In this document: piece after piece, positions 39,412-52,627 of the stretch | Layout of the letters: every line of letters begins with the position of its first letter | How positions within the stretch are numbered: the first letter of the stretch is position 1 | Origin: Crambe crambe | Taxonomy: Eukaryota > Porifera > Demospongiae > Poecilosclerida > Crambeidae | NCBI GenBank assembly: GCA_963924555.1 | Contig: OZ004595.1 | Span: 5,822,599 to 5,886,598, forward strand | Length of the DNA: 64,000 bases | Reading direction: 5' to 3' | Notes under the pieces: generated by a model | What the model was told of the DNA's origin: nothing | The model's database searches: none | Seen by the model: the letters and a program-made list of their open reading frames with translations, nothing else | Program-made: the position numbers and the translations under genes

Positions 39412-40110
39412 ATGGCCACTAAGGAAAGCTTCCATGTCCCCACTCATAGGGGCAAATATCACCCACCCAAATTTCATTACCAGGTCTCTGCCACTGAGAA
39501 ATTAGATTACTTCCTAGTCTTGGACTTTGAAGGTGTGATCAATAAAGATAAAGAATCGCCAAATGTCATGGAGATCATTGAATTTCCCGTTCTTAAAGTC
39601 AATGTTCGGACATTAGAAATTGAGGCTATATTCCATTCTTATGTCCAGCCAGTCGTACACAAAGCACTCAACCCTATCTGTACCGAGATTACTGGGATTA
39701 CAAACGATATGGTATGTGGCCAACCCACTTTACCAGAAGTTCTGGACAAGCTTAACGGTTGGATGAAAGAAGAGGGTTTACTGGAAAAGGGAGTAAAATT
39801 CTGTTTCGTGACATGTGGCGACTGGGATTTGAAAAGTGGACTTCCGATAAACTGTAACTACTTGAAGATCTCATACCCAGATTACCTCCGACGCTGGATC
39901 AACATAAAGAGCTATTTTCAGGCTATTGTTGGTAAGAAGGGACACAGTATGAAAACAATGTTGAATGATCTTCAACTTTCTTTGGATGGGCGGCATCACA
40001 GTGGCATTGATGATAGCAAGAACATAGCCAAGATTGTGCAAGAGTTGGCCAGACGAAACGAACAGTTAAGAAAAGGTTTGGTGGAACCAAGAGTGTTGCA
40101 AAGATTGTAA
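39412..40110 (+). CDS. ERI3-like DEDDh 3'-5' exoribonuclease, intact intronless copy
   Basis: A single uninterrupted frame of 232 residues. The start MATKESFHV is chosen because the paralogues in this cluster also begin MAT; an ATG 27 bases upstream is in frame but unsupported. It is closest to ERI1 exoribonuclease 3 (ERI3): YFLVLDFEG, ATTENTION-free core EIIEFPVLKVNVRTLEIEA, YVQPVVHKALNP, TEITGITNDMV, FVTCGDWDLKSGLP and HHSGIDDSKNIAKI. All DEDDh positions are present: Asp38 and Glu40 (ExoI), Asp139 (ExoII), His196 and Asp201 (ExoIII). ERI-family enzymes trim histone mRNA, rRNA or siRNA 3' ends; the substrate here is unknown. Lack of introns, in a genome whose neighbours average many, suggests a retrocopy origin or intron loss. 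It is the left-most member of a cluster of at least six related sequences. Confidence 0.9.
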   Translation: MATKESFHVPTHRGKYHPPKFHYQVSATEKLDYFLVLDFEGVINKDKESPNVMEIIEFPVLKVNVRTLEIEAIFHSYVQPVVHKALNPICTEITGITNDMVCGQPTLPEVLDKLNGWMKEEGLLEKGVKFCFVTCGDWDLKSGLPINCNYLKISYPDYLRRWINIKSYFQAIVGKKGHSMKTMLNDLQLSLDGRHHSGIDDSKNIAKIVQELARRNEQLRKGLVEPRVLQRL

Positions 40111-40432
40111 AATGTAATCCATCATACTGATATTTATTTTATATTACCCAGCTATTCACTCAATCTGATAATGCATATAACTAGCTTCCTGCCAATTTCC
40201 TTCCGTGGGACACACTCCCACAGACAAGTGATGTTGGAAAGGATAAGGTCAGTTGTTAAAGGTTGCCTTGATCTCTAAGTGGTTTTAGTTGTAAGGTCAT
40301 TCACATCCTACTGTACAGCTGTACGTACTGCATGTTGGTGAGGTCATATGACTGAACACAACTGTACATCTAGTGGCCCAGCCTGTGAGTTGAGTCTGCA
40401 CCTGGGAGAACCTTAAGCGCCTTTGATTGACC

Positions 40433-40558
40433 ATGGCTATGAACACGAGTGAATGTCATGGAGTGCATATTCCAACTTACAAGAATTATAGTCCACCAAG
40501 ATATTCATATAACAAGTTTGCCTGCAGAAAATTTGGATGTAAGAGGAAGGACTACTAA
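40433..40558 (+). pseudogene. N-terminal fragment of ERI3-like exonuclease
   Basis: A 41-codon frame beginning ATGGCTATGAACACG encodes GVHIPTYKNYSPPRYS, clearly the N-terminal leader of the paralogues (compare IPTYKNYTPP in the broken copy at 40991). It stops before the catalytic DFE motif and is truncated. Confidence 0.8.
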
Positions 40559-40605
40559 AGAAAGGTGACAGTGAGAGAGCATTTCCTTCAAGTCTCCTCA
40601 TTTGT

Positions 40606-40740
40606 CCATTTTAACAGTGAAGTGTTCATCCAGCATTTGAGGTAGTCTGCATAGGGAAGTTGTAGATAATCGATACTGCAGTTAGCAGATCCCATCTGCC
40701 ACACGTCACAAAGCATGATTTTACTGACCTGATGTTGATA
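40606..40740 (-). pseudogene. inverted fragment of ERI3-like exonuclease
   Basis: On the minus strand the frame reads VTCGRWDL and DYLQLPYADYLKCW, matching the ExoII region of the neighbouring paralogues (VTCGDWDL, DYLQLSYGDYLKRW). It has no start or ends and is oriented opposite to every other copy, so an inversion followed or accompanied duplication. Confidence 0.8.
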
Positions 40741-40990
40741 ATATGTCTCAGTGGGAGCTTTATAGCTAAGTCCTATTGCATTAAGCGATTAATAGCACAT
40801 TCATGGGGTGCAACAGACCCTGAAGTTTTAATAGTACGATGAACAGCTCTCATCTGACAGCTAAACATGTATGTCCAGCTAGCTACATTAATTTGTAAAC
40901 AGTATAGCTATAGGTCCACAATATAATATAGTACTTCAGGTGGGAGTGATACAGCCAAAATAATTGCAGCTAGCTTGATATAGTTCGACA

Positions 40991-41676
40991 ATGGCTACAA
41001 AAGCAGGTGGAAGTCATGGAATACAAATTCCTACTTATAAGAATTACACTCCACCTCCATGTTACTGCAGGAAGATGCCCACAGAAAAGTTTGACTAACT
41101 TTCTTATCGTGGATTTTGAAGCAAACAAATATGGAAAGAACTGTCATCCTGTTGATGAAATTATCGAGTTTGCTGTCCTTAAAATGAAAGTTCAAACTAT
41201 GGAGGTTGAGGCTACCTTTCATCGCTTTGTCCAGCCTGTCATTACACCTGTGATCCATCCATTCATAACAAAGTTAACTGGGATCACACAAGATAAGGTA
41301 GCCGGTCAACTATTTCTACCAAAAGTCTTAGAGGAGTTTGGAACCTGGATGAAAGAGGAAGGATTACTAAAAGAAGGAGTGAAGTTGTGTTCTGTGACGT
41401 GTGGAGATTGGGATCTACAAGCTGCACTGCCAATAAACTGTGATTATCTTCAGCTTTCCTATGGAGACTACCTCAAACGTTGGATCAATATTAAGGAGTA
41501 TTTCATAGCTGTGACACGCAGAGTAGGTGGAATGGGAATGATGCTCAAACATCTTCGGCTTCAGCAAGAAGGGGAGACATACCAGCGGCTTATACTGCAG
41601 GAACACTGCCAGGCGAGATGAACGACTGAGAAACGGTGAAGTGGAATCCAAGCTTCTAAGATTGTGGACTCCATAG
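40991..41676 (+). pseudogene. ERI3-like exonuclease copy 2, frameshifted
   Basis: The family start ATGGCTACAAAAGCAGG is present. One extra base just before the ExoI motif (around 41093) puts a TAA in the frame. The following 180 codons are open and read NFLIVDFEANKYGK, TKLTGITQDKV, VTCGDWDLQAALP and INCDYLQLSYGDY. A second one-base insertion near 41570, then a deletion of roughly 26 bases, destroy the C-terminus. Relative to copy 3 it needs two frame corrections, so it is a pseudogene unless an alternative start inside is used. An ATG at 41007 opens the downstream frame but would replace the leader with unrelated residues. Confidence 0.85.
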
Positions 41677-41679
41677 ATA

Positions 41680-42117
41680 AATCATTCGCAATTTTTGTAC
41701 AATGAAATCAGTCATATCAAGTAGCCCTTTTGTCACTAGAGTAATCTCCTGCCAAATTTTCCTATATGGAGAGACCATCCCACATTGGATTAACAGCAAG
41801 CTGTAAAATAATTAGTCACATGACTTATAATGTGGGTTTACGTGTAAGTCATTGCCTATAAGTTTAGGTATGAACCATCCGGATTAATTTGCTAGGGATA
41901 TAGTCTATTTCGTCCTGAGATTTTGCTCATTAATTTTGGATTATTATTGTGTTCAGTAGTAACTGCAAGGCAACTGCTTACTTTTTGTGACTGGTATTGA
42001 GTCTACAGGTTATCATTTCTTACTTTATGTGACTGGTATTGAGTCTACAGGTTATCACTTTATTAATTGAACTATAATGACATTGCTTTGTGGGCAATAG
42101 GACACCCTATGATGAGA
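41680..42117. other. intergenic, no gene
   Basis: AT-rich spacer. A direct duplication of the phrase GTGACTGGTATTGAGTCTAC plus AGGTTATCA occurs at about 41979-42056. Nothing else was recognised. Confidence 0.5.
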
Positions 42118-42119
42118 TA

Positions 42120-42271
42120 CAGTGAATTGCAAGTTGGTTGTCCACGTTTGACTGCAATAAAACTTGTATCTATTGAGAAAAAAGCCACACATCTATTCAG
42201 GAACAGCCTCAACTTTACACATTTGTTTTAAATTTTGCATCTCCATTGGACAGCCAACTTGCAATTCACTG
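42120..42271. mobile_element. Tc1/mariner-type MITE, 152 bp
   Basis: Terminal inverted repeats CAGTGAATTGCAAGTTGG (about 25 bases with one mismatch, continuing into TGTCCA) are flanked by TA on both sides (42118-42119 and 42272-42273). There is no transposase. The ends resemble those of the elements at 48741-48906 and 58347-58472. Confidence 0.85.
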
Positions 42272-42366
42272 TAGAGAGAATGATTACATAAATGGTCACA
42301 TGACCATTAATCATATTCATGAGAATGTAAACAAGGTGGGAGTGTCCGATAGCTAGCTAGTCGACA

Positions 42367-43068
42367 ATGGCTACAAATGCAGGTGAGAGACGTTATGATT
42401 GTCATGATAGGAACTACTATAATCCACCCCGTTGTTCCTACATAAAGATGCCTCCAGAAAAGCTTGACTATTTTCTTGTCTTGGATTTCGAAGCTAATAG
42501 ATATGGACAACATCGTCCTCGTGTCAAGGAAATTATAGAGTTTGCTGTCCTTAAAATGAATGTTCAAACTTTGGAAGTTGAAGAGATCTTTCATCACTAT
42601 GTCCAGCCCACCATTACACCTGTGATTGATCCATTTATAACAGAGTTAACTGGGATCACACAAGATAAAGTAGATGATCAGCTCACTTTACCAGAAGTCT
42701 TGAAAGAGTTCAACATCTGGATGCAAGAGGAAGAATTACTCAGAGAAGGAGTAAAGTCTTGCTTTGTGACATGTAGTAACTGGGATTTAAAAAAAGCATT
42801 GCCAATAAACTGTGATTATCTACAGCTTCTCTATCCAGGCTACCTCAAACGCTGGATCAATATTAAAGATTATTTCAAAGCTATGACAGGCAGAAAACGA
42901 AAAGTTGAGAAAATGCTCGCACATTTTCATCTTGACCCAGAGGGGAGACATGCCAGTGGCCTATATTGCAGGAACACTGCCAAGGTTCTCCAGAAGTTGG
43001 CCGATCAAGATGAACAGCTAAGAAAGGGGGAAATAGAACCAAAAGTTTTGAAATTACTAACAGACTGA
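42367..43068 (+). CDS. ERI3-like exonuclease copy 3, open frame but degraded ExoIII motif
   Basis: A single frame of 233 residues starting MATNAGERRYD. It keeps LDYFLVLDFEANRYG (Asp40, Glu42), EIIEFAVLKMNVQTLEVEE, TELTGITQDKV and the ExoII Asp in TCSNWDLKKALP. The region that is HHSGIDDSKN in copy 1 reads HASGLYCRN here: the catalytic His and both Asp are gone and one codon is missing. DEDDh chemistry needs that His and Asp, so nuclease activity is probably lost, while the frame is otherwise unbroken over 700 bases. It may be a dead-enzyme paralogue retained for RNA or protein binding, or a young pseudogene. Intronless like copy 1. Followed by a broken duplicate of NIPSNAP exons. Confidence 0.8.
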   Translation: MATNAGERRYDCHDRNYYNPPRCSYIKMPPEKLDYFLVLDFEANRYGQHRPRVKEIIEFAVLKMNVQTLEVEEIFHHYVQPTITPVIDPFITELTGITQDKVDDQLTLPEVLKEFNIWMQEEELLREGVKSCFVTCSNWDLKKALPINCDYLQLLYPGYLKRWINIKDYFKAMTGRKRKVEKMLAHFHLDPEGRHASGLYCRNTAKVLQKLADQDEQLRKGEIEPKVLKLLTD

Positions 43069-43324
43069 TTGCTTACTGAGCAATTAATATAGCTAATGCA
43101 TGTAATAGAAAAATTAACCTCTGCTCATATTGATTTTATTCCTAGACATCATTACAGTAGAAGAAAAGAAGGAAGTGGGGAAGGGGAGCAAATTTCAGCT
43201 AGTAGTGATAAGTGAGAGAAATTTAACCTCTAAAGTTACTGTACACAAATATCTTGATTTACTCACAGAATGCTCTCATTGTATAAACCATACAGTATAA
43301 GAGTTCTCAGTTTCTCACTGAAGC

Positions 43325-43905
43325 GGTGAAAGGTGAACTGGAATCAGAGCCTTCACTGTAAAGTCATTTATCAACTTCATACTCCCTAAAATAAGAAAGT
43401 TACCGGTAGATGACTCTGACTCCCAAGTAGCTACAGATGCTATGGGAGTCACATGTCTCTCGCCACTCTTGGTGATTATCATTCATCAATTCCACCCAAT
43501 GCTTCTCCCTCGCTTCAAACAAAACCATTAATATCTTAAACTCAATTGCATGCGCATTAATTTACTCTAGTAAGCTACTATGGAACCTTTGATAAAGAAT
43601 ACTCTGAAAGAGGATAAATGACAATGAGATCTCTCTGTGTAAAAAATGACCTCCAAAGAGGACAACGTTGGATAAAAGGCTGAGTCCCAATTAAGTGTGT
43701 GCATTATTCAGAGCTTCCACTGTAGATAGTTCACCTTTGTGGGCAGGGCCAAAAATCAGACCACCAGAATCTGATAGGCTTTGGATAGTCATGGTTGTTC
43801 ATTCTGACCCAGCATCCCTCCCTTTATCAACTAGCCTCCTTGAGTTGGTAAAGGGTCTGGCTACGCGAGACTAATTAATGGACCACAAGCTCACTATACG
43901 TTTGT
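43325..43905 (-). pseudogene. duplicate 3' exons of NIPSNAP gene, broken
   Basis: Three blocks match the exons of the intact NIPSNAP gene at 51260-51926. The last exon (about 43345-43405) still encodes KALIPVHLSPLQ and a TGA stop. The penultimate exon has lost its GTGAGT donor (now GTGACT), and the block at 43735-43895 has part of its coding sequence replaced by a repeat ending GGCTACGCGAGACTAATTAA. Earlier exons are absent. It is half of a segmental duplication together with the exonuclease copies. Confidence 0.8.
43578..43722. mobile_element. GGACAACCTCT-family MITE inside the NIPSNAP duplicate
   Basis: Begins near CTATGGAACCTTTGATAAAG after TA and ends CAGAGCTTCCACTG before TA. A copy occupies the equivalent place in the intact NIPSNAP gene (51647-51764), so the insertion predates the duplication. 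Confidence 0.75.
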
Positions 43906-44049
43906 GAAGTTTTAAAGTGCAAACCCCTCAGCGCTTATTTTCATCACAATTGTAAGAATGCACGCGCGCGCGTGATCAATTTTACGCATGCGCAAACTGA
44001 CTTAAAACAAAAAACAACAATAACAACAACAAAAAAACAGCAAGGGCTT

Positions 44050-44180
44050 GTCCATATAGCATGACCCCCAGAAGCAGCCCAATGTAGACATGTGCGTCCA
44101 TTTGTGTCCTGTATAGCTCAACCAGAGCCCCTGCATGACCAAGCATCACCACCACCTCTGTGTGTCCTCACTCACACGCT
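44050..44180 (-). pseudogene. inversin-like ankyrin fragment, frameshifted
   Basis: The minus strand reads PLFQACE, a stop, then GHTEVV, and in a second frame GRTCLHWAASGGHA. These are consecutive ankyrin elements of inversin (TPLF-ACE-GH, then LLHWAALGGN). The frame change and stop show it is dead. Confidence 0.65.
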
Positions 44181-44730
44181 TGGAAGAGAGGGGGGAAAAG
44201 AGGGGGAAGGGGGAGAAGAGAAAGGAGGGAGGGGAGAGGAGGGAAAGGAGAGTGGAGAGGATAGTAGAGAGGGGAAAGGAGAGAAGAAAGGAGGGAGGGA
44301 GGGAGGGGGAGAGGGGAGAAGGAGGGAAGGAGAAGTGACTCTTCAAGAGAGCGGAGCCAGGAACCTTGAATTATACCATCCTTACTGGTACCTAGCTTGT
44401 CACAGGCATGTGCCTTTATCACTGTGTAGAGCCATCCCTCGCTCCCTCCCACTTCTCCCTTCCTTCCTTCTTCCCTCTCCCCCTCCCTCTTCCTTTCCCC
44501 TCTCTGAACCTTGAATTATACCCTCCTTACTGGTACCTAGCTTGTCACAGGCATGTGCCTTTAGCACTGTGTAGAGCCATCCCTCGCTCCCTCCCACTTC
44601 TCCCTTCCTTCCTTCTTCCCTCTCCCCCTCCCTCTTCCTTTCCCCTCTCTACTATCCTCTCCTCTCTCCTTTCCTGCCTCTCCCCTCCCTCCTTTCTCTT
44701 CTCCTCCTTTCTCTTTCCCCCCAACTACTT
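44180..44730. repeat. GA-rich tract followed by a 145-bp tandem duplication
   Basis: Positions 44180-44330 are nearly pure purine on the plus strand. Positions 44361-44505 and 44506-44650 are two almost identical copies starting GAACCTTGAATTATACC, each ending in a CT-rich tract. Open frames here are compositional artefacts. Confidence 0.85.
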
Positions 44731-44869
44731 AATCTGTATAAATTTAGAGTAGTTGATTTTCAATGGTGATAGCTAGCTAGTACCACCACCATGTGAAAAG
44801 TAATAGTGAACTCTTAAAATTGCCCCCACTAGTCATATGTAGCTACAGTGCAATACCAACAGAGTATCT

Positions 44870-45300
44870 GTTGCTAATAGCCTGCCTCCCCAGTGGTTGA
44901 CAAAAAATTGGTGCATTACAGGGTACTGGCTCACATTAAACAATGTAGTGCAGTACACATGCACCAGTTGAAGATTACGCCACCTTGACTGATATCAAAT
45001 ATTCTGCACCCTCTGTAATCCAAGGAGAAGTATCCCCCCACTCAGATGGGCCAGAGCATTCAAAGAATGAGCCGCACTATAGTACCTGGTATCACATGAC
45101 CGCTAATGTCGTGTGACCATCATTCTGTTATTGTAGCTGTCTCTGTGTGATCTCTCCCACTGTCAATCATCACGAGGTTGAGGCACATGAGACTAGAATT
45201 CCCACATGCATTCCCCCTCCCTGTGACCACATACTTATGAACTAACAATCATTAAGACCTAGTCTGGAAACCAGCCTCTCAAATGCAGAGGGAGGGTCTG
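44870..45300. repeat. duplicated segment, copy A
   Basis: About 420 bases starting near CCTGCCTCCCCAGTGGTTGA and ending AGACCTAGTCTGGAAACCAG are repeated in the same orientation at about 46085-46500. The copies differ by small indels and substitutions. Confidence 0.85.
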
Positions 45301-45324
45301 TCATACCAAACTGGTTCCACCACC

Positions 45325-45475
45325 ACCTCTGTGTGTCCTCACTCGCATGCTCAGAAGAGAGGGGTGTGGCCACTGGAGTCAACAGCATTCAGGTTTGCAG
45401 AGTGTTGGAGGAGGAGTTGAACACATCTGGCATGGCCAGAGAGAGTGGCAGCATGTAGTGCTATAGGTGTGAATA
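45325..45475 (-). pseudogene. inversin-like ankyrin fragment
   Basis: The minus frame reads ALHAATLSGHARCVQLLLQH and NLNAVDSSGHTPLF, then a TGA where inversin has Arg, then ACE. It matches the inversin ankyrin unit TALHAAALSGHV through TPLFRACE. The in-frame stops indicate a pseudogene. Confidence 0.75.
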
Positions 45476-45655
45476 GGAGAGACAGATTGAGGAGGAGAGA
45501 GGGAGGGAGGAGGAGAGAAAAGATATAGGAGGGGAAGGAAGGGGAGAAAAAGGAGAAGGGGAGAAAAGAGGGGGGACAAGAGATGGGGAGAAGAGAAGGG
45601 GATGTCATGAGGTGGAAGGAGGAAAGAACTCACAGGCACTCTTTCATTCCCTTAG

Positions 45656-45830
45656 GCTCAGAATAATCACGTTGACTGTGTGACTGCTCTCCTATCATTC
45701 CCCTCTGTGCGAGATGTTGCTGACAGTGACGGCCGCACTTCCTTGACATGGGCTGCTCAGAGAGGCAACCACACAGTGCTGAAGGCCATGTTGGAGAGAA
45801 GGGGAGATATACATGCAAGCCACTCAGGGT
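45656..45830 (+). pseudogene. inversin-like ankyrin fragment, opposite orientation
   Basis: After a good acceptor (TTCCCTTAG) the plus frame is open and reads HVDCVTALLSFPSVRDVADS, DGRTSLTWAAQRGNHTV and MLERRGDIHAS. In inversin this unit immediately precedes the unit found on the minus strand at 45325-45475. Neighbouring exons in opposite orientation mean the locus was rearranged. No complete gene could be assembled. Confidence 0.7.
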
Positions 45831-46084
45831 CAGCTAGCTCATGGAAGAAATGGTGATGAACTGTCAATGTACACTCCAATCCAGCCACTTGTCAGATTAC
45901 AGGGGTAGTGACTTCGTAAGTACTGAGACTTTCAGAGTGGTCTGAATATAGGGGAGGTTCCATTGCATGGGTCTGCCCCCCACTTCTTTCTTCCCTCTTC
46001 CTTCCCTCTCCTCACTCCTTTCCCTCCCTCCCACCTTCACCTATATGTACAGTGCAATCATTGGCAACACAACAGAATAGCTAT

Positions 46085-46504
46085 TTTAGTGATAATACCC
46101 TGCCTCCCCAGTGGTTGACAAAAAGTTGGTGCATTAAGGGTACTGGCTCACATTAAACAATGTAGTGCAGTACACATGCACCAGTTGAAGATTACGCCAC
46201 CTTGACTGATATCAAATATTCTGCACCCTCTGTAATCCAAGGACTCAGATGGGTCAGAGCATTCAAAGAATGAGCCATACTATAGTATCATATGACCGCT
46301 AATACCATGTGACATGTGAAGCTCGTAAATATCATCATTCTGTTATTGTACCCACTGTCAATCATCACGAGGTTGAGGCACATGAGTGTGCTTACATTCC
46401 TGACCACATTCTCATCTATCTTCTAAATTAATTACTAACAATTAAGACCTAGTCTGGAAACCAACCTCTCAAATGCAGAGGGAGGGTCTTGTGACTTACT
46501 CATA
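46085..46504. repeat. duplicated segment, copy B, also left arm of an inverted repeat
   Basis: Direct copy of 44870-45300. Its right part (about 46245-46504) is also matched by the reverse complement of 46744-47010, giving a large imperfect inverted repeat with a roughly 240-base spacer. Confidence 0.85.
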
Positions 46505-46743
46505 CACATAATAACGGTCATGATCACTTCACTAAGGCTTGTTTAGATTAGTGAAACAATACATTTGAATGGGCCACAAATATCATTGAAATGGCTGTTC
46601 AGATTCGTGAGGGTTTGGACTAACAAGGTTTGAATTAATGAGGGTCCACTGCACTGGCCTTCAAACTATCACTGGTTGCCCAAAAAAGCTTAAGGCCTAT
46701 TCTGCCACTGCTACATGCGCATGTACCTGCATGTGCAGAGCTG

Positions 46744-47010
46744 GTATGAGTAAGTCACAAGACCCTCCCTCTGCATTTGAGAGGTTGGTTTCCAGACTAG
46801 GTCTTAATTGTTAGCTTAGACGAGTATGTGGGTGGAATGCATGTGGGAGTTCTGTTCATGAGCATCACTCATGTGCCTCACCCTTGTGATGATTGACAGT
46901 GGGAGAGATCAGCAGAATGATGATATTCATGAACTTCACGTCACACAGCATTAGTGGTCATGTGATACTATAGTGTGGCTCATTCTTTGAATGCTCTTGA
47001 CCCATGATCC
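46744..47010. repeat. inverted third copy of the duplicated segment
   Basis: The reverse complement contains AAGACCTAGTCTGGAAACCA, CACGAGGTTGAGGCACATGA-like and GAGCCACACTATAGTATCAC phrases found in both direct copies. No coding sequence was found in or between the copies. Confidence 0.8.
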
Positions 47011-47509
47011 TGAGTTCACATGGACTGTTAAAAATGGGGTCTAGCTAGCTAGCTAGTTATATGTACACCTCCTGAATTGTTTCAACCCTATATAGTCCTA
47101 ATGCATTGTGAGCAGAGTAGAGATTGAGCTGCTGTCATGAAGGCATAAGAAATGCCTGCCTACTTAAGAAAACTATGTTTCATGCATGTGGGTGCAATGG
47201 CAGACTAACAAAGACTGTGTTGTTGGTGGAATGCGCAGCATTTGTTCTGTTGAGAGTACATCTCACTTCCCTTTCGTCTGGCGTCTCTCACTCTTACTTC
47301 CCGAGCATGCATAGCAGCTTCTGTGCTTGAGAGTCTTGCCTCCTGCCCCAAGCAGCCACTCATGCTCAATAGTCTCAGTTGGAAGCCCCACCCAATTTAT
47401 ATACATACATACATACAGATTTTCCACCAACACATTAATAGGGGCTCGCTATGCTCACCCAATAACTTCTTAAACTACTTGTCAGTTTTGACTCTTATAG
47501 CAGTCTAGA
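47011..47509. other. intergenic, no gene
   Basis: Spacer downstream of the peroxidase gene. It contains a GCTAGCTAGCTAG run near 47042 and an ATACATACATAC run near 47400. No supported coding sequence. Confidence 0.5.
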
Positions 47510-49100
47510 TCATGTCAATTGAAGAAAAATAGAAACAACGGTTTCCACAGCAACAATGACTAGTGCTGCCTTAACATTCAGGGCAGAGCCCGTGATAGTT
47601 TCAGCAGTTGTTGGGGTGCTCACAATTGGGTCAATGAGTAAAGGTAGTTCCTCTCCAGCCATTACGAGATGGCTATTAGGATAGCCATGCTCAAGAAGAA
47701 TCTGAAATGCTGGACCGAAGTCCTCATGCCATCTGGTGTTGTTCCTGGCATACTCCATTACAATATCAGCTGTGCGTGATGGCTGGCAGTCAGTGAACAG
47801 ATCCCTACAGCCGTCATCAGTTTCCCTACCCATCTCATCTGGTGATATTTGCTTGAACAGAGCCTGCAGTGTGATAATAATAAGATGCATTAGACAGAAT
47901 ATTTGACACTTTTTCCTATAAATGAACACTCCAATGCCCACCAACCCACTCACAGCTAGAGCAATATCAAAAGTATAATACCATGTCTGTGTTGAGCATC
48001 ATCCTTCCATTTCGTGGTGGGGGTCGTCCTGGGATGCGTTCGAAATTGTCCCACTGAAAGCGTGGACTCAGACCTGGAGGAGTATTGGGAGAATTTACTT
48101 GGTTCTGATTCCATCTGTTACCGATACCCATTAGTGAGCGGAAGAAGGCGTTGTCAAATCTGTTCGTAGGTGGGGCCCACGGACCTTGAAACCCACTGTT
48201 TCGTGTTGAGGTCATTCCCATAGTGTGAGCACCCATTATAGCAACAGTCTGCCTTTCGGTCAATCCCATTCCATCCCTGAAGACTTCCATTACATGCTCT
48301 AGGTCCTTGTGAGCATCAGGGAAACCAAAGTCCCAGGTGGAGTTTGGCGAAGTAGCACAGTCCTTGCGGCCATAGAGAATTGTCATGTCTGGCACAGGTA
48401 TAGTGCAATTTGGGTTCATTTGAGGGCATTGCTGCTGATCTGATCCTCTTCTGACAGCTACGACTGCAGCCAGGGCATAGAAATCTGCACGAGACATACC
48501 ACTAGCAGCAAACTCATTGTCATAAAGCGTATTGACTTCCTCAAAGATTCCAGCCAGCCCATTGTTTTCAGAATTATCAAGATCAATGCAACCATTACAG
48601 CCGGTGACGCAATCGTGGAACAGAAGACGAATCAGTTTAGCAGCAGGCTGTACATTAAAAATAATGCAGTATACACACAGAAAAGTAAACTGTTGTTTGC
48701 TGTCAAATAGAATGCCTCAGAAACACGGTATTTCCTAGTACAGCAGATTGCAGTGATCTTGCAACATGAAATCCAGAACAGCAAAACCAAAATTTACATA
48801 GTCTCCTTTCAAATGGCTTTGGAGTTGGGCTACTTGAAAGGAGGCTATGTAAATTTTTGGTTATGGCTGTTCTGGATTTGTATTGCAAGATCACTGCAAT
48901 CTGCTGTATAGTACCCCTCTTGTACCCTCCAACTGTGGCATTCTTACATTGTTGATTCTTCGTGGATTTTCTCGTGTCAAATTTCTCATCATTTGGGTAA
49001 CCATGTCAATGGCTCTATTCTCGTCTGCTTCCTCCACAACAGCAGAGTGACAAAACCCAGCCATAAGCAACACAAAACTAAATAGGTACACTGCTGACAT
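47510..49100 (-). CDS. secreted plant/fungal-type (APX/CCP-like) heme peroxidase
   Basis: Three exons (49100-48948, 48647-47982, 47863-47510) join in phase 0 to 390 residues. Residues 1-19 (MSAVYLFSFVLLMAGFCHS) are a signal peptide. The non-animal heme peroxidase superfamily is clear: distal RLLFHDC with Arg58 and His62, the proximal MGAHTMG with His192, GFQGPWAPPTNRFDNAFF after it, and LNTDMALF near the C-terminal side, all as in class I ascorbate/cytochrome c peroxidases. Extra Cys residues (Cys64, 68, 71, 125, 132, 148) suggest extracellular disulfides. The last 25 residues (ALNVKAALVIVAVETVVSIF) are hydrophobic and could be a GPI signal or membrane anchor. It reduces peroxide using an unknown donor. 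Animal heme peroxidases belong to a different superfamily. Introns and position between animal genes argue against contamination. Intron 1 holds a MITE. Confidence 0.92.
48741..48906. mobile_element. Tc1/mariner-type MITE, 166 bp, about 72-bp arms
   Basis: The ends CAGCAGATTGCAGTGATC mirror each other and the similarity continues for about 72 bases on each side, so nearly the whole element is a hairpin. TA flanks both ends (48739-48740 and 48907-48908). It lies in intron 1 of the peroxidase gene, close to the donor of exon 1. Confidence 0.85.
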
Positions 49101-49690
49101 TGTTGCCAAGCTACAGTGCAGCTTTCAAGCTCTTAGTAAATGCTACTGTCCAAAGGGAATAGCTAGCTAGCTATTAGCGAGCTTCTTTTATCTGAGTGAT
49201 CATGTGTCTACTAATCAGAACTATGGAGCATTTCATGAATATAATTATGGTCATAGGGGCATGTCACATGCCACGAATGGGGCGAGCAAAGCCCCATGCA
49301 TCCACACATCATCTTTATGGAACCCCTGTGCATACAATAATGCACCAGACACTACACTACTTAGCAACATTGACCAATAATTATGGTTACTCTGGCTAGG
49401 CCCAGAAAAACTCAGAAGTGGCTGTTGAAGCCATTTTGAATGGAAAAATTGCTAAGCCTTGCCTATCACACATGCAGTTCTAAACCTAAAACTCACCCAG
49501 CCGGCCAGGTAGCGAAAAAGAGCGCTAGATTTTCTCCAGTCGAGTCCTGCCGGATAGCTGGCCCTTCACTAATCCGGACGATCTTTACCTTATACATACA
49601 TAGAATCCGCAAAATTGTGCTCTCCTGTACATACTGTTACCATCACACCATGCTGATAGAGAATATCAATATTCCCAGTCAATCAGCAGG
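49101..49690. other. upstream region of the peroxidase gene, no other gene
   Basis: Presumed 5' region of the minus-strand peroxidase, with a CTAGCTAGCTA run near 49161. Otherwise unremarkable; no coding exon recognised. Confidence 0.5.
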
Positions 49691-49694
49691 CCAC

Positions 49695-50290
49695 TCAGTG
49701 ATCCCTTGACCAGAATGGAGAATACAGTTGTGACATTCTGAATGAACAGATGCATACTGAGCCCAAGTCAGCAGGGACAACAGTAAGAGGAATCAGGATG
49801 CCATCCACCAAAAGCTGCCAGAACCACTCCAGAAGGCTATGGATTTGGCCAAGCAGAAAGGGGCTCATCTTTCTAACTGTTCTCCCACTGTCTGAGCATG
49901 GCTTTACACAGAGCAGCTTTCCATGATGCTCTTGCACTCAGATATGGCTGGATACCAACTAACATGCTTTCCACTTGCGACTGTGGTAAACACTTCAGTG
50001 TGGAAAACGCACTCTCATGTGCTAGAGGTGGTTTTCCCTCCATAAGACATAATGAAATACGTGACATCACAGCCACACTACTAACTGAAGTCTGCCATGA
50101 TGTTTATGTGGAGCCTGACTTGCAGCCTGTGATAACAGACCAACTCAGTGGGGCCTCAGCCAACCGATAAGATGGTGCCAGACTGGATATATCTGCCAAT
50201 GGAGTCTGGGGTGGCAGATTTGAGAAAACTTACTTCGATGTAAGAGTCCTGAACCCCCTTGCTCCCAAAAATAGAAACCAGGGGCTATCT
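49695..50290 (+). mobile_element. retroelement-derived coding relic
   Basis: One frame reads LPEPLQKAMDLAKQKGAHLS, another (49898-50170) HDALALRYGWIP, CDCGKHFSVENALSCARGGF and SIRHNEIRDITATLLTEVCH, then after a stop DGARLDISANGVWGGRFE and FDVRVLNPLAPKNR. I recall this module (a Cys-rich CGK-FSVEHALSC motif followed by RHNEIRD) from proteins carrying a reverse transcriptase in sponges and cnidarians; that is memory and not a search. Internal stops and frame changes show it is decayed. No terminal repeats were found. Confidence 0.6.
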
Positions 50291-50370
50291 GGCACATATA
50301 GAACCCACGAACACATAACCTTTTGTTTTGTTTCAGAATAATCTCCTGCCAAATTTTCCTAAACTGCAGG

Positions 50371-50555
50371 TAAGTAAAAGTCTATTTGCATTCACCTTGC
50401 CCCTTGATCATTCAGTAACTGCTATAGCTAACTTCTTAACCAAATTTCTAGTCTAATGCATCAACAGAGAGCTGCATGATTATCCACTCTCTGCTTGGGT
50501 GTTTGAAATTCAAAGTTATAGCAGTGGGCAAGGTGAATGCAAATATACTATATAG
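50371..50555. mobile_element. hairpin MITE, AAGTCTATTTGCATTCACC family
   Basis: Left end AAGTCTATTTGCATTCACC, right end GGTGAATGCAAATATACT. A close relative with intact ends lies at 63420-63600. This copy has a slightly decayed right end. Confidence 0.7.
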
Positions 50556-50574
50556 CTATACATAGTGTCAAATT

Positions 50575-51060
50575 CCTACTTACAGAAATTAGAATCCACC
50601 TTAAATCATGCTTCTACAGAAAGATGCCCACAGAAAAAAATTTGACTACGACTGCTTTCTTATCAAGCCAACAGAGATGAAATAAACTGTCCTCGTGCAT
50701 AGGGGTGTAGCCTTGAAAATTTGAGTGATCTGGTTGAAATGCCAGGCCATACCCACTATAGTTTAAATATCACCATTAATAGAAGTTGATGTGTGTCCTT
50801 AGCTGAAATGAAGTCAAGTTTTAAGACTACAATATAGCTAAGTGAGTGATTTAAGCAGGCTCAGCATAGCTGCCAACTGCATGTCCAGGGTTTCCTGGAT
50901 TGTCCAGGGACAGGCAGAAAACAAAAAGTGGAGAAAATGATTCGTCTTCACCCAGAGGGGAGACATATGCTAGTGGCCTATGTTGCAGGAACACTGCCAA
51001 GGTTCTCCAAGAGTTGGCCCATCAAGATGAACAGCTAAGGGAAATAGAACCAAATTACTA
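50575..51060 (+). pseudogene. ERI3-like exonuclease copy 4, internally deleted
   Basis: The leader-like part (50575-50700) retains AAGATGCCCACAGAAAA and a corrupted ExoI region. The sequence then jumps to the C-terminal part at about 50905-51060, which reads ASGLCCRNTAKVLQELAHQD. The central ExoII half is missing. Its ExoIII region carries the same loss of His and Asp as copies 2 and 3. It sits just past the 3' end of the intact NIPSNAP gene, as copy 3 does relative to the broken NIPSNAP. Confidence 0.8.
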
Positions 51061-51259
51061 TATTACTATGCTATATAGCTATAGTACCTCTGCTCATATT
51101 TTATCTCTAGATATCATTAGAAGAAAGGAAGGAAGGAGGAGGAATGGCAGCAAATTTCAGCTATAGTAGTGAGAGCCTCAAAGTTACTGTACACAAATAT
51201 CTTGGGCATTCAAAACCGTACAAACCATATAATCATACAGTATAAGAGTTCTCAGTTTC

Positions 51260-52627
51260 TCACTGAAGCGGTGAGAGGTAAACTGGAATCAGAGCCTTTG
51301 CTGTAAAGTCATTCATCAACTTCATACAGTCTCTCCCTAAAATGAGCCCAAGCCATAATTAATGGCAGAGCATCAAAAGTTAGATGACTCTGACTCCCAA
51401 GTAAGCTAGCTACAAGTGCTATATGGGACTCACATGTCTCTCGCCACTCTTGGTGATTATCATCAGTCAACAATTCCGACCAATGCTTCTCCCTTGCTTC
51501 AAAGTCCACGTGTGGATATATTGACACAACTATATTAACATTAACAAAACCATTAGTGTACCTTATACTCAATTGCATGCATTACTCATAGCAATTAAGC
51601 TACTATTTAAACTCTCATTGCATGCATTACTCATATTTTACTTCTACAATGGAAAGGGGACAAACGACAATCTCTCTATTAAAAAATGACCTCCCACGAC
51701 CTCTCTACAATGGATAAAAGGCTGAGTCCCAATTAAGTGTGTGCATTATTCAGAGCTTCCACTGTAGAGTGTTCACCTCTGTGGGCAGGGCCAAAATCAG
51801 ACCACCAGAATCCGATAGGCTTTGGATAGTCATGGTTCATTCTTGCTGGTAGTCCTTGTTGCATGATATGCCCAAATTGGGACAGTAATCCTGGCTTTAA
51901 GTCATGGACCACAAGCTCATACATACCTATGTTTGTGAAGTTTTAGATGATCATATTATAACGATCAGGCAAGGATAAGCTCTCTTCACTCACCGTATCC
52001 CTTGACCGGATCTAGTCTGGGTTTGAACCATGAGAATGGCTTCAGTAAGACATTGGTCTATGTGCATGAAGTATATAGCAAGAGTCAGTGAAAAAAAAAT
52101 ATCTGTGCATGTGTTACCCATAATAGTATGAAGGTGTGTGGTCTCTTTCCCCTCACACCCCTTGAGACCATTCTTCCCCACTATCTAACTATATAAATGG
52201 CATGGTGTACCTGCGAGGTGAGGAGGGGGAGCAGTTTAGGGAGGCACACTTCTCTCCACTCCTTGCTCTCTCCAAGTTCCTTTCTCACAGCAGTACGATG
52301 AGAAAAATTATCTAAATCGAAACTTCAAAATGTAAAACAAAAGCCTAGCTATTCCAATTTCATACCAAATTCCCATAAATAGATGAGTTCATTGAGACCA
52401 CCCAGTTCAGTATACCAGAATCCATTCATTTTGGAGTACTTTGTCCTGACAGGTAGCACCTCCTTCATCACAGCCATGTACTCACTCATCTTTCCAGGCT
52501 GCACAGCATACGTCCTCAATTCGTATATCTTGGACTCTCCATTTGTACTGTGATGTCTACAGGCCGGAACTGGCTGCTTGAAGTGCCCGAACCCTGCATA
52601 AACCACGCGCACAAACCTCTTCGCCAT
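51260..52627 (-). CDS. NIPSNAP3: NIPSNAP3-like protein
   Basis: Six exons (52627-52366, 52311-52211, 52057-51994, 51926-51777, 51529-51434, 51336-51260) join in phase to 249 residues; human NIPSNAP3A has 247. The two ferredoxin-like NIPSNAP domains are visible: KIYELRTYAVQPGKMSEYMA with GFWYTELGGLNELIYLWEF and DNFSHRTAVRKEL, then MYELVVHDLKPGL with GFWWSDFG. The tail ALIPVYLSPLQ is the family C-terminus. The N-terminus is basic and hydrophobic (MAKRFVRVVYAGFGHFKQ), compatible with mitochondrial targeting. NIPSNAPs are mitochondrial or vesicular proteins implicated in vesicle transport and mitophagy signalling. A MITE sits in the intron after the exon ending at 51777. A broken partial duplicate lies at 43325-43905. 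Confidence 0.94.
51647..51764. mobile_element. GGACAACCTCT-family MITE in NIPSNAP intron
   Basis: Starts CAATGGAAAGGGG after TA and ends CAGAGCTTCCACTG before TA, 12 bases from the donor side of the neighbouring exon. It is internally deleted relative to the copy at 38671. Confidence 0.75.

Follow-up and report, generated by a model that had tools for sequence, protein, structure and literature searches.

A local cluster of ERI3-type exonuclease genes was observed in the sponge Crambe crambe, within a stretch of 64,000 nucleotides on contig OZ004595.1 (assembly GCA_963924555.1, positions 5,822,599 to 5,886,598 of the forward strand), which is termed the window here and whose first letter is position 1. 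The cluster comprises five copies in the window, named c0 to c4. The first of these along the sequence, c1 (39412..40110, plus strand), is an intact ERI3 gene that runs from ATG to stop without introns, encodes 232 amino acids and exhibits a complete DEDDh active site. Copy c0 contains a forward part (40433..40565, plus strand), in which codons 1–35 are joined via a deletion to codons ~116–129, and an inverted part (40623..40742, minus strand) covering codons ~125–166, with one weaker alignment extending to 40562; since the stub and the inverted fragment meet at about codon 125–130, they represent one broken copy with a deletion of roughly codons 36–118 plus an inversion. The local cluster described in an earlier note on this DNA is real, with five members in place of the at least six that were counted there. 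No ExoIII part was found for c0. Copy c2 (40991..41680, plus strand) is broken by a deletion of 21 bases and by two single-base insertions, each a +1 frameshift, and displays no in-frame stop once the frame is followed through these insertions. Copy c3 (42367..43068, plus strand) is open for 233 amino acids, and c4 (50569..51068, plus strand) is decayed, with 50569–50697 corresponding to codons ~12–54 and 50909–51068 to codons ~173–231. The similarities within the cluster are not due to chance, because c1 and c3 share 56% identity over 220 residues (E 4e-74) and c2 and c3 share 64.7% identity over their main segment of 167 residues. The last copy arose by segmental duplication that took the 3' flank of c3 along: the flank at 43069..43805 recurs at 51061..51843 adjoining c4 with 82% identity over 690 aligned bases and 20 gaps, so that c4 carries ~740–780 bases of it.

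The sequences belong to the ERI3 lineage. Among solved structures, the best match of c1 was human ERI3 (202 bits, E 1e-58; PDB 7k05, 7lpz and 2xri), versus 139 bits for ERI1 and 87 for ERI2, and its RNase_T domain (PF00929) scored 93.2 bits against a curated cut-off of 24, which together place c1 in the ERI3/ERI1 family. The best sequence match of c3 was also ERI3 (155 bits, versus 116 for ERI1 and 90 for ERI2), RNase_T was the sole domain matched in Pfam-A at E 0.001, and the best Foldseek match of its structure model was ERI3, tied with ERI1 by structural Z (20.6 versus 20.8); c3 is thus an ERI3-derived paralog with an ERI fold in its predicted structure. ERI1 (3'hExo) and ERI2 share family and fold with the cluster and occupy separate loci outside it, one on C15 and one on C16, respectively, both with intact ExoIII, and the ERI2 gene additionally carries a GRF zinc finger. 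No further ERI3-like locus was listed in two genome protein searches in which only the best candidates were scored, the matches on C14 and C20 being weak and unconvincing; around L005, one of the RNase_T hits L004–L007, no ERI-like match was obtained at E below 0.5. The sponge ERI1 and ERI2 genes match exon by exon, whereas c1, c2 and c3 are without introns, and c1 itself may have lost its introns or derive from a retrocopy.

The ExoIII motif separates c1 from the other readable copies. All five DEDDh residues of c1 are present as in human ERI3 (DFE, WD and HSGIDD, for D, E, D and HxxxxD), its ExoIII region being GRHHSGIDDSKN, compared with GRPHSGIDDCKN in human ERI3 and GREHSGIDDTKN in sponge ERI1, while sponge ERI2 carries GKQHSG and IDDARN, which probably sit on two exons. 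In contrast, neither the catalytic His nor the last Asp is present in c2, c3 or c4. The region reads GRHASGLYCRN in c3, where His is replaced by Ala, one Asp codon is deleted and the other Asp is changed to Tyr; the altered block (42952..42969, plus strand) covers codons A196, S197, G198, L199, Y200 and C201 and is one codon shorter than in c1. It reads GRHTSGLYCRN in c2, with Thr at the position of the catalytic His, and ASGLCCRN in c4 after a 2-base insertion. The three copies thus have in common the one-codon deletion, the change of Asp to Tyr (Cys in c4), the change of Ile to Leu and the absence of the catalytic His, and DFE and WD are retained in c2 and c3. The description in the earlier note of an intact ERI3-type copy at 39412, an open copy at 42367 without the catalytic His and Asp, and broken copies at 40991 and 50575 with the same altered region agrees with these observations; its replacement of SGIDDSKN by SGLYCRN or SGLCCRN is shared as stated, by a one-codon deletion plus substitutions that leave seven residues for eight. 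In Arabidopsis SDN1, likewise a DEDDh enzyme, a change at any single one of the five catalytic residues is reported to eliminate activity (PMC6123492), and c3 is therefore very probably inactive as a nuclease.

The loss of ExoIII is derived, because the motif is intact in the outgroups (human ERI3, sponge ERI1, ERI2 and c1). Between c2 and c3, silent-only differences were observed in 3 of the 15 codons of the altered block versus 27 of the 163 upstream codons (29–191), and replacements in 2 of 15 versus 54 of 163; since silent-only differences are no rarer in the block than upstream, inheritance is a more likely source of the shared altered state than recent conversion. The silent-site distance between c2 and c3 is ~0.49 substitutions per site, versus ~0.21 after correction for the c3–c4 flank (125 of 690 aligned bases differ), indicating that c4 split from c3 after the c2/c3 split. 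The altered form was thus copied at least twice more, first at the c2/c3 split and then at the c3/c4 split, and the proposal of the earlier note that the catalytic motif was lost before duplication is supported.

Selection continued for a time after the loss. In the codon model, the ratio of replacement to silent rates (omega) for c2 and c3 was 0.46 (196 codons; bootstrap 0.31–0.79), with omega of 1 rejected at a likelihood ratio of 11.3, and 0.48 with all codons, so that the replacement rate was about half the silent rate. The codon alignment omits columns in which c3 has a gap; this alters a few codons (in c1 at ExoIII, and towards the N terminus in both c1 and c2) and leaves the c2–c3 omega from codon 29 onward unaffected. 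As controls, the same estimator gave 0.81–1.11 in all six frames of the c3–c4 flank and 0.96–1.18 in four of five wrong frames of c2–c3. A three-branch model rejected omega of 1 for the c2 and c3 pair against a shared free value (twice the log-likelihood difference, 12.1), and constraint sits somewhere on these two branches, because the pair rejects 1 and neither branch alone does so (likelihood ratios of 0.7 and 1.5 in two runs for c2). Polarised changes point the same way at a suggestive level, 29 of 48 c3-specific changes being replacements versus 73% expected (one-sided p 0.039) and 36 of 57 c2-specific changes being replacements (p 0.067), in counts that lose silent changes as the c1 outgroup is silent-saturated. 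The omega of c1–c3 was 0.15 with saturated silent sites (t ~2.2), a value that may stem largely from the period preceding the loss and from the c1 line. A value near 1, which the earlier note had named, together with a lack of c3 expression, as evidence for an ordinary pseudogene, was thus obtained for neither the c1–c3 nor the c2–c3 pair.

The open frame of c3 also bears on its later history. In simulations, a neutral c3 stayed open with a chance of 2e-5 to 6e-3 at a neutral time of 0.103 (half the c3–c4 flank distance), of 1e-4 to 1e-2 at 0.089 and of 0.5–8% at 0.05, across indel rates of 0.05–0.16 per substitution, of which 0.16 is the rate measured in the c3–c4 flank. The simulation begins from c3 itself, its clock assumes that c3 and c4 evolved at equal rates, and the flank on the c4 side may contain part of a gene, as an exon represented by the minus-strand open reading frame (ORF) 51309–51578, in which case the clock is too slow. 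Because the chance of a neutral open frame is low, constraint probably acted on c3 during much of the time since the c4 split, although it may have been lost recently.

On balance, we lean towards a local ERI3 expansion whose inactive form, maintained under relaxed selection, was re-copied and mostly lost, with c3 as the last open member. An intronless Crambe crambe ERI3 gene would have been duplicated locally, and in one duplicate the ExoIII half of the active site would then have been removed by deletion of one Asp codon, change of the other Asp to Tyr and change of His to Thr or Ala. This altered form was copied again, at the c2/c3 split and then at the c3/c4 split, where the flank was duplicated along with it; c2 and c4 have since died, and c3 is the sole survivor with an open frame. 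The dead form is predicted to fold like ERI3 without being able to cleave RNA, and would act, if at all, as a non-catalytic binder of RNA or a partner, serving as a competitor or a scaffold for the active ERI3. Production of the c3 protein may continue today, or c3 may have just begun to decay.

Several observations weigh against the favoured expansion with a selectively kept inactive form. The c3 branch alone is compatible with omega of 1 (likelihood ratios of 1.17 and 0.69 in two runs), restriction to codons 29–190 raises the c2–c3 omega to 0.56 with a likelihood ratio of 5.2, the fifth wrong frame, on the opposite strand, gave 0.58 with a likelihood ratio of 5.6, and the c2–c3 differences by codon position (42, 34 and 55; p 0.08) are only suggestive; all of the selection could be past. 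Among 100 positions common to c1 and human ERI3, c3 keeps 75 and c2 keeps 71; 17 were lost in both, 12 in c2 only and 8 in c3 alone, three of the latter being Gly. The structure model of c3 reaches a middling mean predicted local distance difference test (pLDDT) of 68.7, too low to judge RNA contacts. The flanks of c2 and c3 display no clear match, and their comparison gives no firm support: over 300 bases, the 5' score of 272 was reached by 16 of 200 block shuffles and the 3' score of 212 by 184 of 200, in shuffles that preserved two-base blocks only, while simulated co-duplicated flanks scored 300 or less in 0–1.5% of cases at a neutral distance of 0.29 and in 8.5–33.5% at the silent distance of 0.49. 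The flanks thus fit the larger distance better and are less alike than expected even there; with such a low 3' score, the 3' flank may perhaps have been left out of the duplication, and, by eye, c2 and c3 seem to share ~60 bases on their upstream sides.

A serious possibility is that c3 represents an ordinary young pseudogene, on whose lineage selection had ceased by the time of the c3/c4 split or shortly afterwards and whose frame stayed open by luck. The compatibility of its own branch with omega of 1, the eight conserved positions lost in c3 alone, the death of both sister copies and the relaxed omega overall all fit such a history. The simulated chances of a neutral open frame speak against it except mainly for a recent death, the 0.5–8% being reached at about half the time, and so does the deficit of replacements among the c3-specific changes. 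It is very improbable that c3 cleaves RNA through another active-site arrangement, with His195 or the new Tyr200 substituting as in the DEDDy class. The retained DFE and WD supply three of the four acids, a His remains one residue upstream (c1 has one too) and Tyr stands at the altered site, but the DEDDy ExoIII motif is YxxxD, and c3, reading HASGLYCRNT, carries no Asp at the fifth position beyond His195 or at the fourth beyond Tyr200 and exhibits neither HxxxxD nor YxxxD; with YCRNT lacking an Asp at the required place, c3 has not switched to the DEDDy type, and the SDN1 result argues further against activity. Equally doubtful is a single loss of ExoIII that postdates the c2/c3 split and reached the other copies by gene conversion, the dead form not itself being duplicated, since despite the closeness of the copies and the 90% identity of the altered block over 42 bases (versus 80% over the longest ungapped stretch), its silent differences are no rarer than upstream and its higher identity sits at replacement sites, although so short a block is not a strong test.

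A close parallel to c3 is metazoan Maelstrom, whose MAEL domain exhibits a DEDD-type nuclease fold with its catalytic residues lost. Animal Maelstrom is described as lacking the catalytic residues, and the Bombyx protein as inactive as a nuclease but able to bind single-stranded RNA (PMC4408791). By analogy, c3 might bind RNA or a partner without cutting, and might conceivably influence RNA decay or small RNAs. It is a tentative and rather unlikely proposal that c3 works as an ERI3 pseudoenzyme, in which removal of part of an exonuclease active site would have produced a young binder of RNA or a partner that regulates ERI3 targets and recently parallels the origin of Maelstrom; purifying selection is shown for the c2–c3 pair and not for the c3 branch alone. 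Maelstrom also differs in being present across animals and in having a structural zinc site, whereas c3 is a local ERI3 paralog with putative RNA binding. Among the literature matches listed, none of the titles concerned an inactive ERI3 paralog or sponge ERI3. Enzyme paralogs without activity are common, and Maelstrom indicates that loss of DEDD catalysis can leave an RNA-binding protein, in a case whose animal-wide spread makes it old. In the present cluster, the active gene has both a dead open copy and dead broken ones as neighbours, and the early steps (motif loss, continued selection, re-duplication and decay) could therefore be dated and tested within a single genus; even with c3 unused, selection would clearly have outlasted catalytic loss here.

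Outside the sponge, a search of the genome contig collection for relatives found none. Two small ERI-like DEDDh exonucleases with intact ExoIII and ~30% identity to c1 were found in viral contigs of IMG/VR (L029:4989-5552 and L030:4980-5528), and they served as alignment rows only. Between c3 and c4, a tandem duplication of 145 bases with 99% identity was observed at 44361–44650, nested inverted and direct repeats at 44872–47005, and an ORF at 47967–48497 (minus strand) that matches haem peroxidase (Pfam PF00141), a family that comprises the peroxidases of plants, fungi and bacteria. Just upstream of c4, an open stretch at 49898–50170 displays a CDCG...RHNEIRD pattern without a Pfam match and resembles a retroelement remnant. 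In the c3-side duplicate flank (43286–43805), no minus-strand ORF of at least 70 amino acids was listed, and in the c4-side shared flank lies ORF 51309–51578, which has no Pfam match and may be a further exon of a NIPSNAP gene, the NIPSNAP domain (Pfam) being located beside c4 at 52349–52627 on the minus strand.

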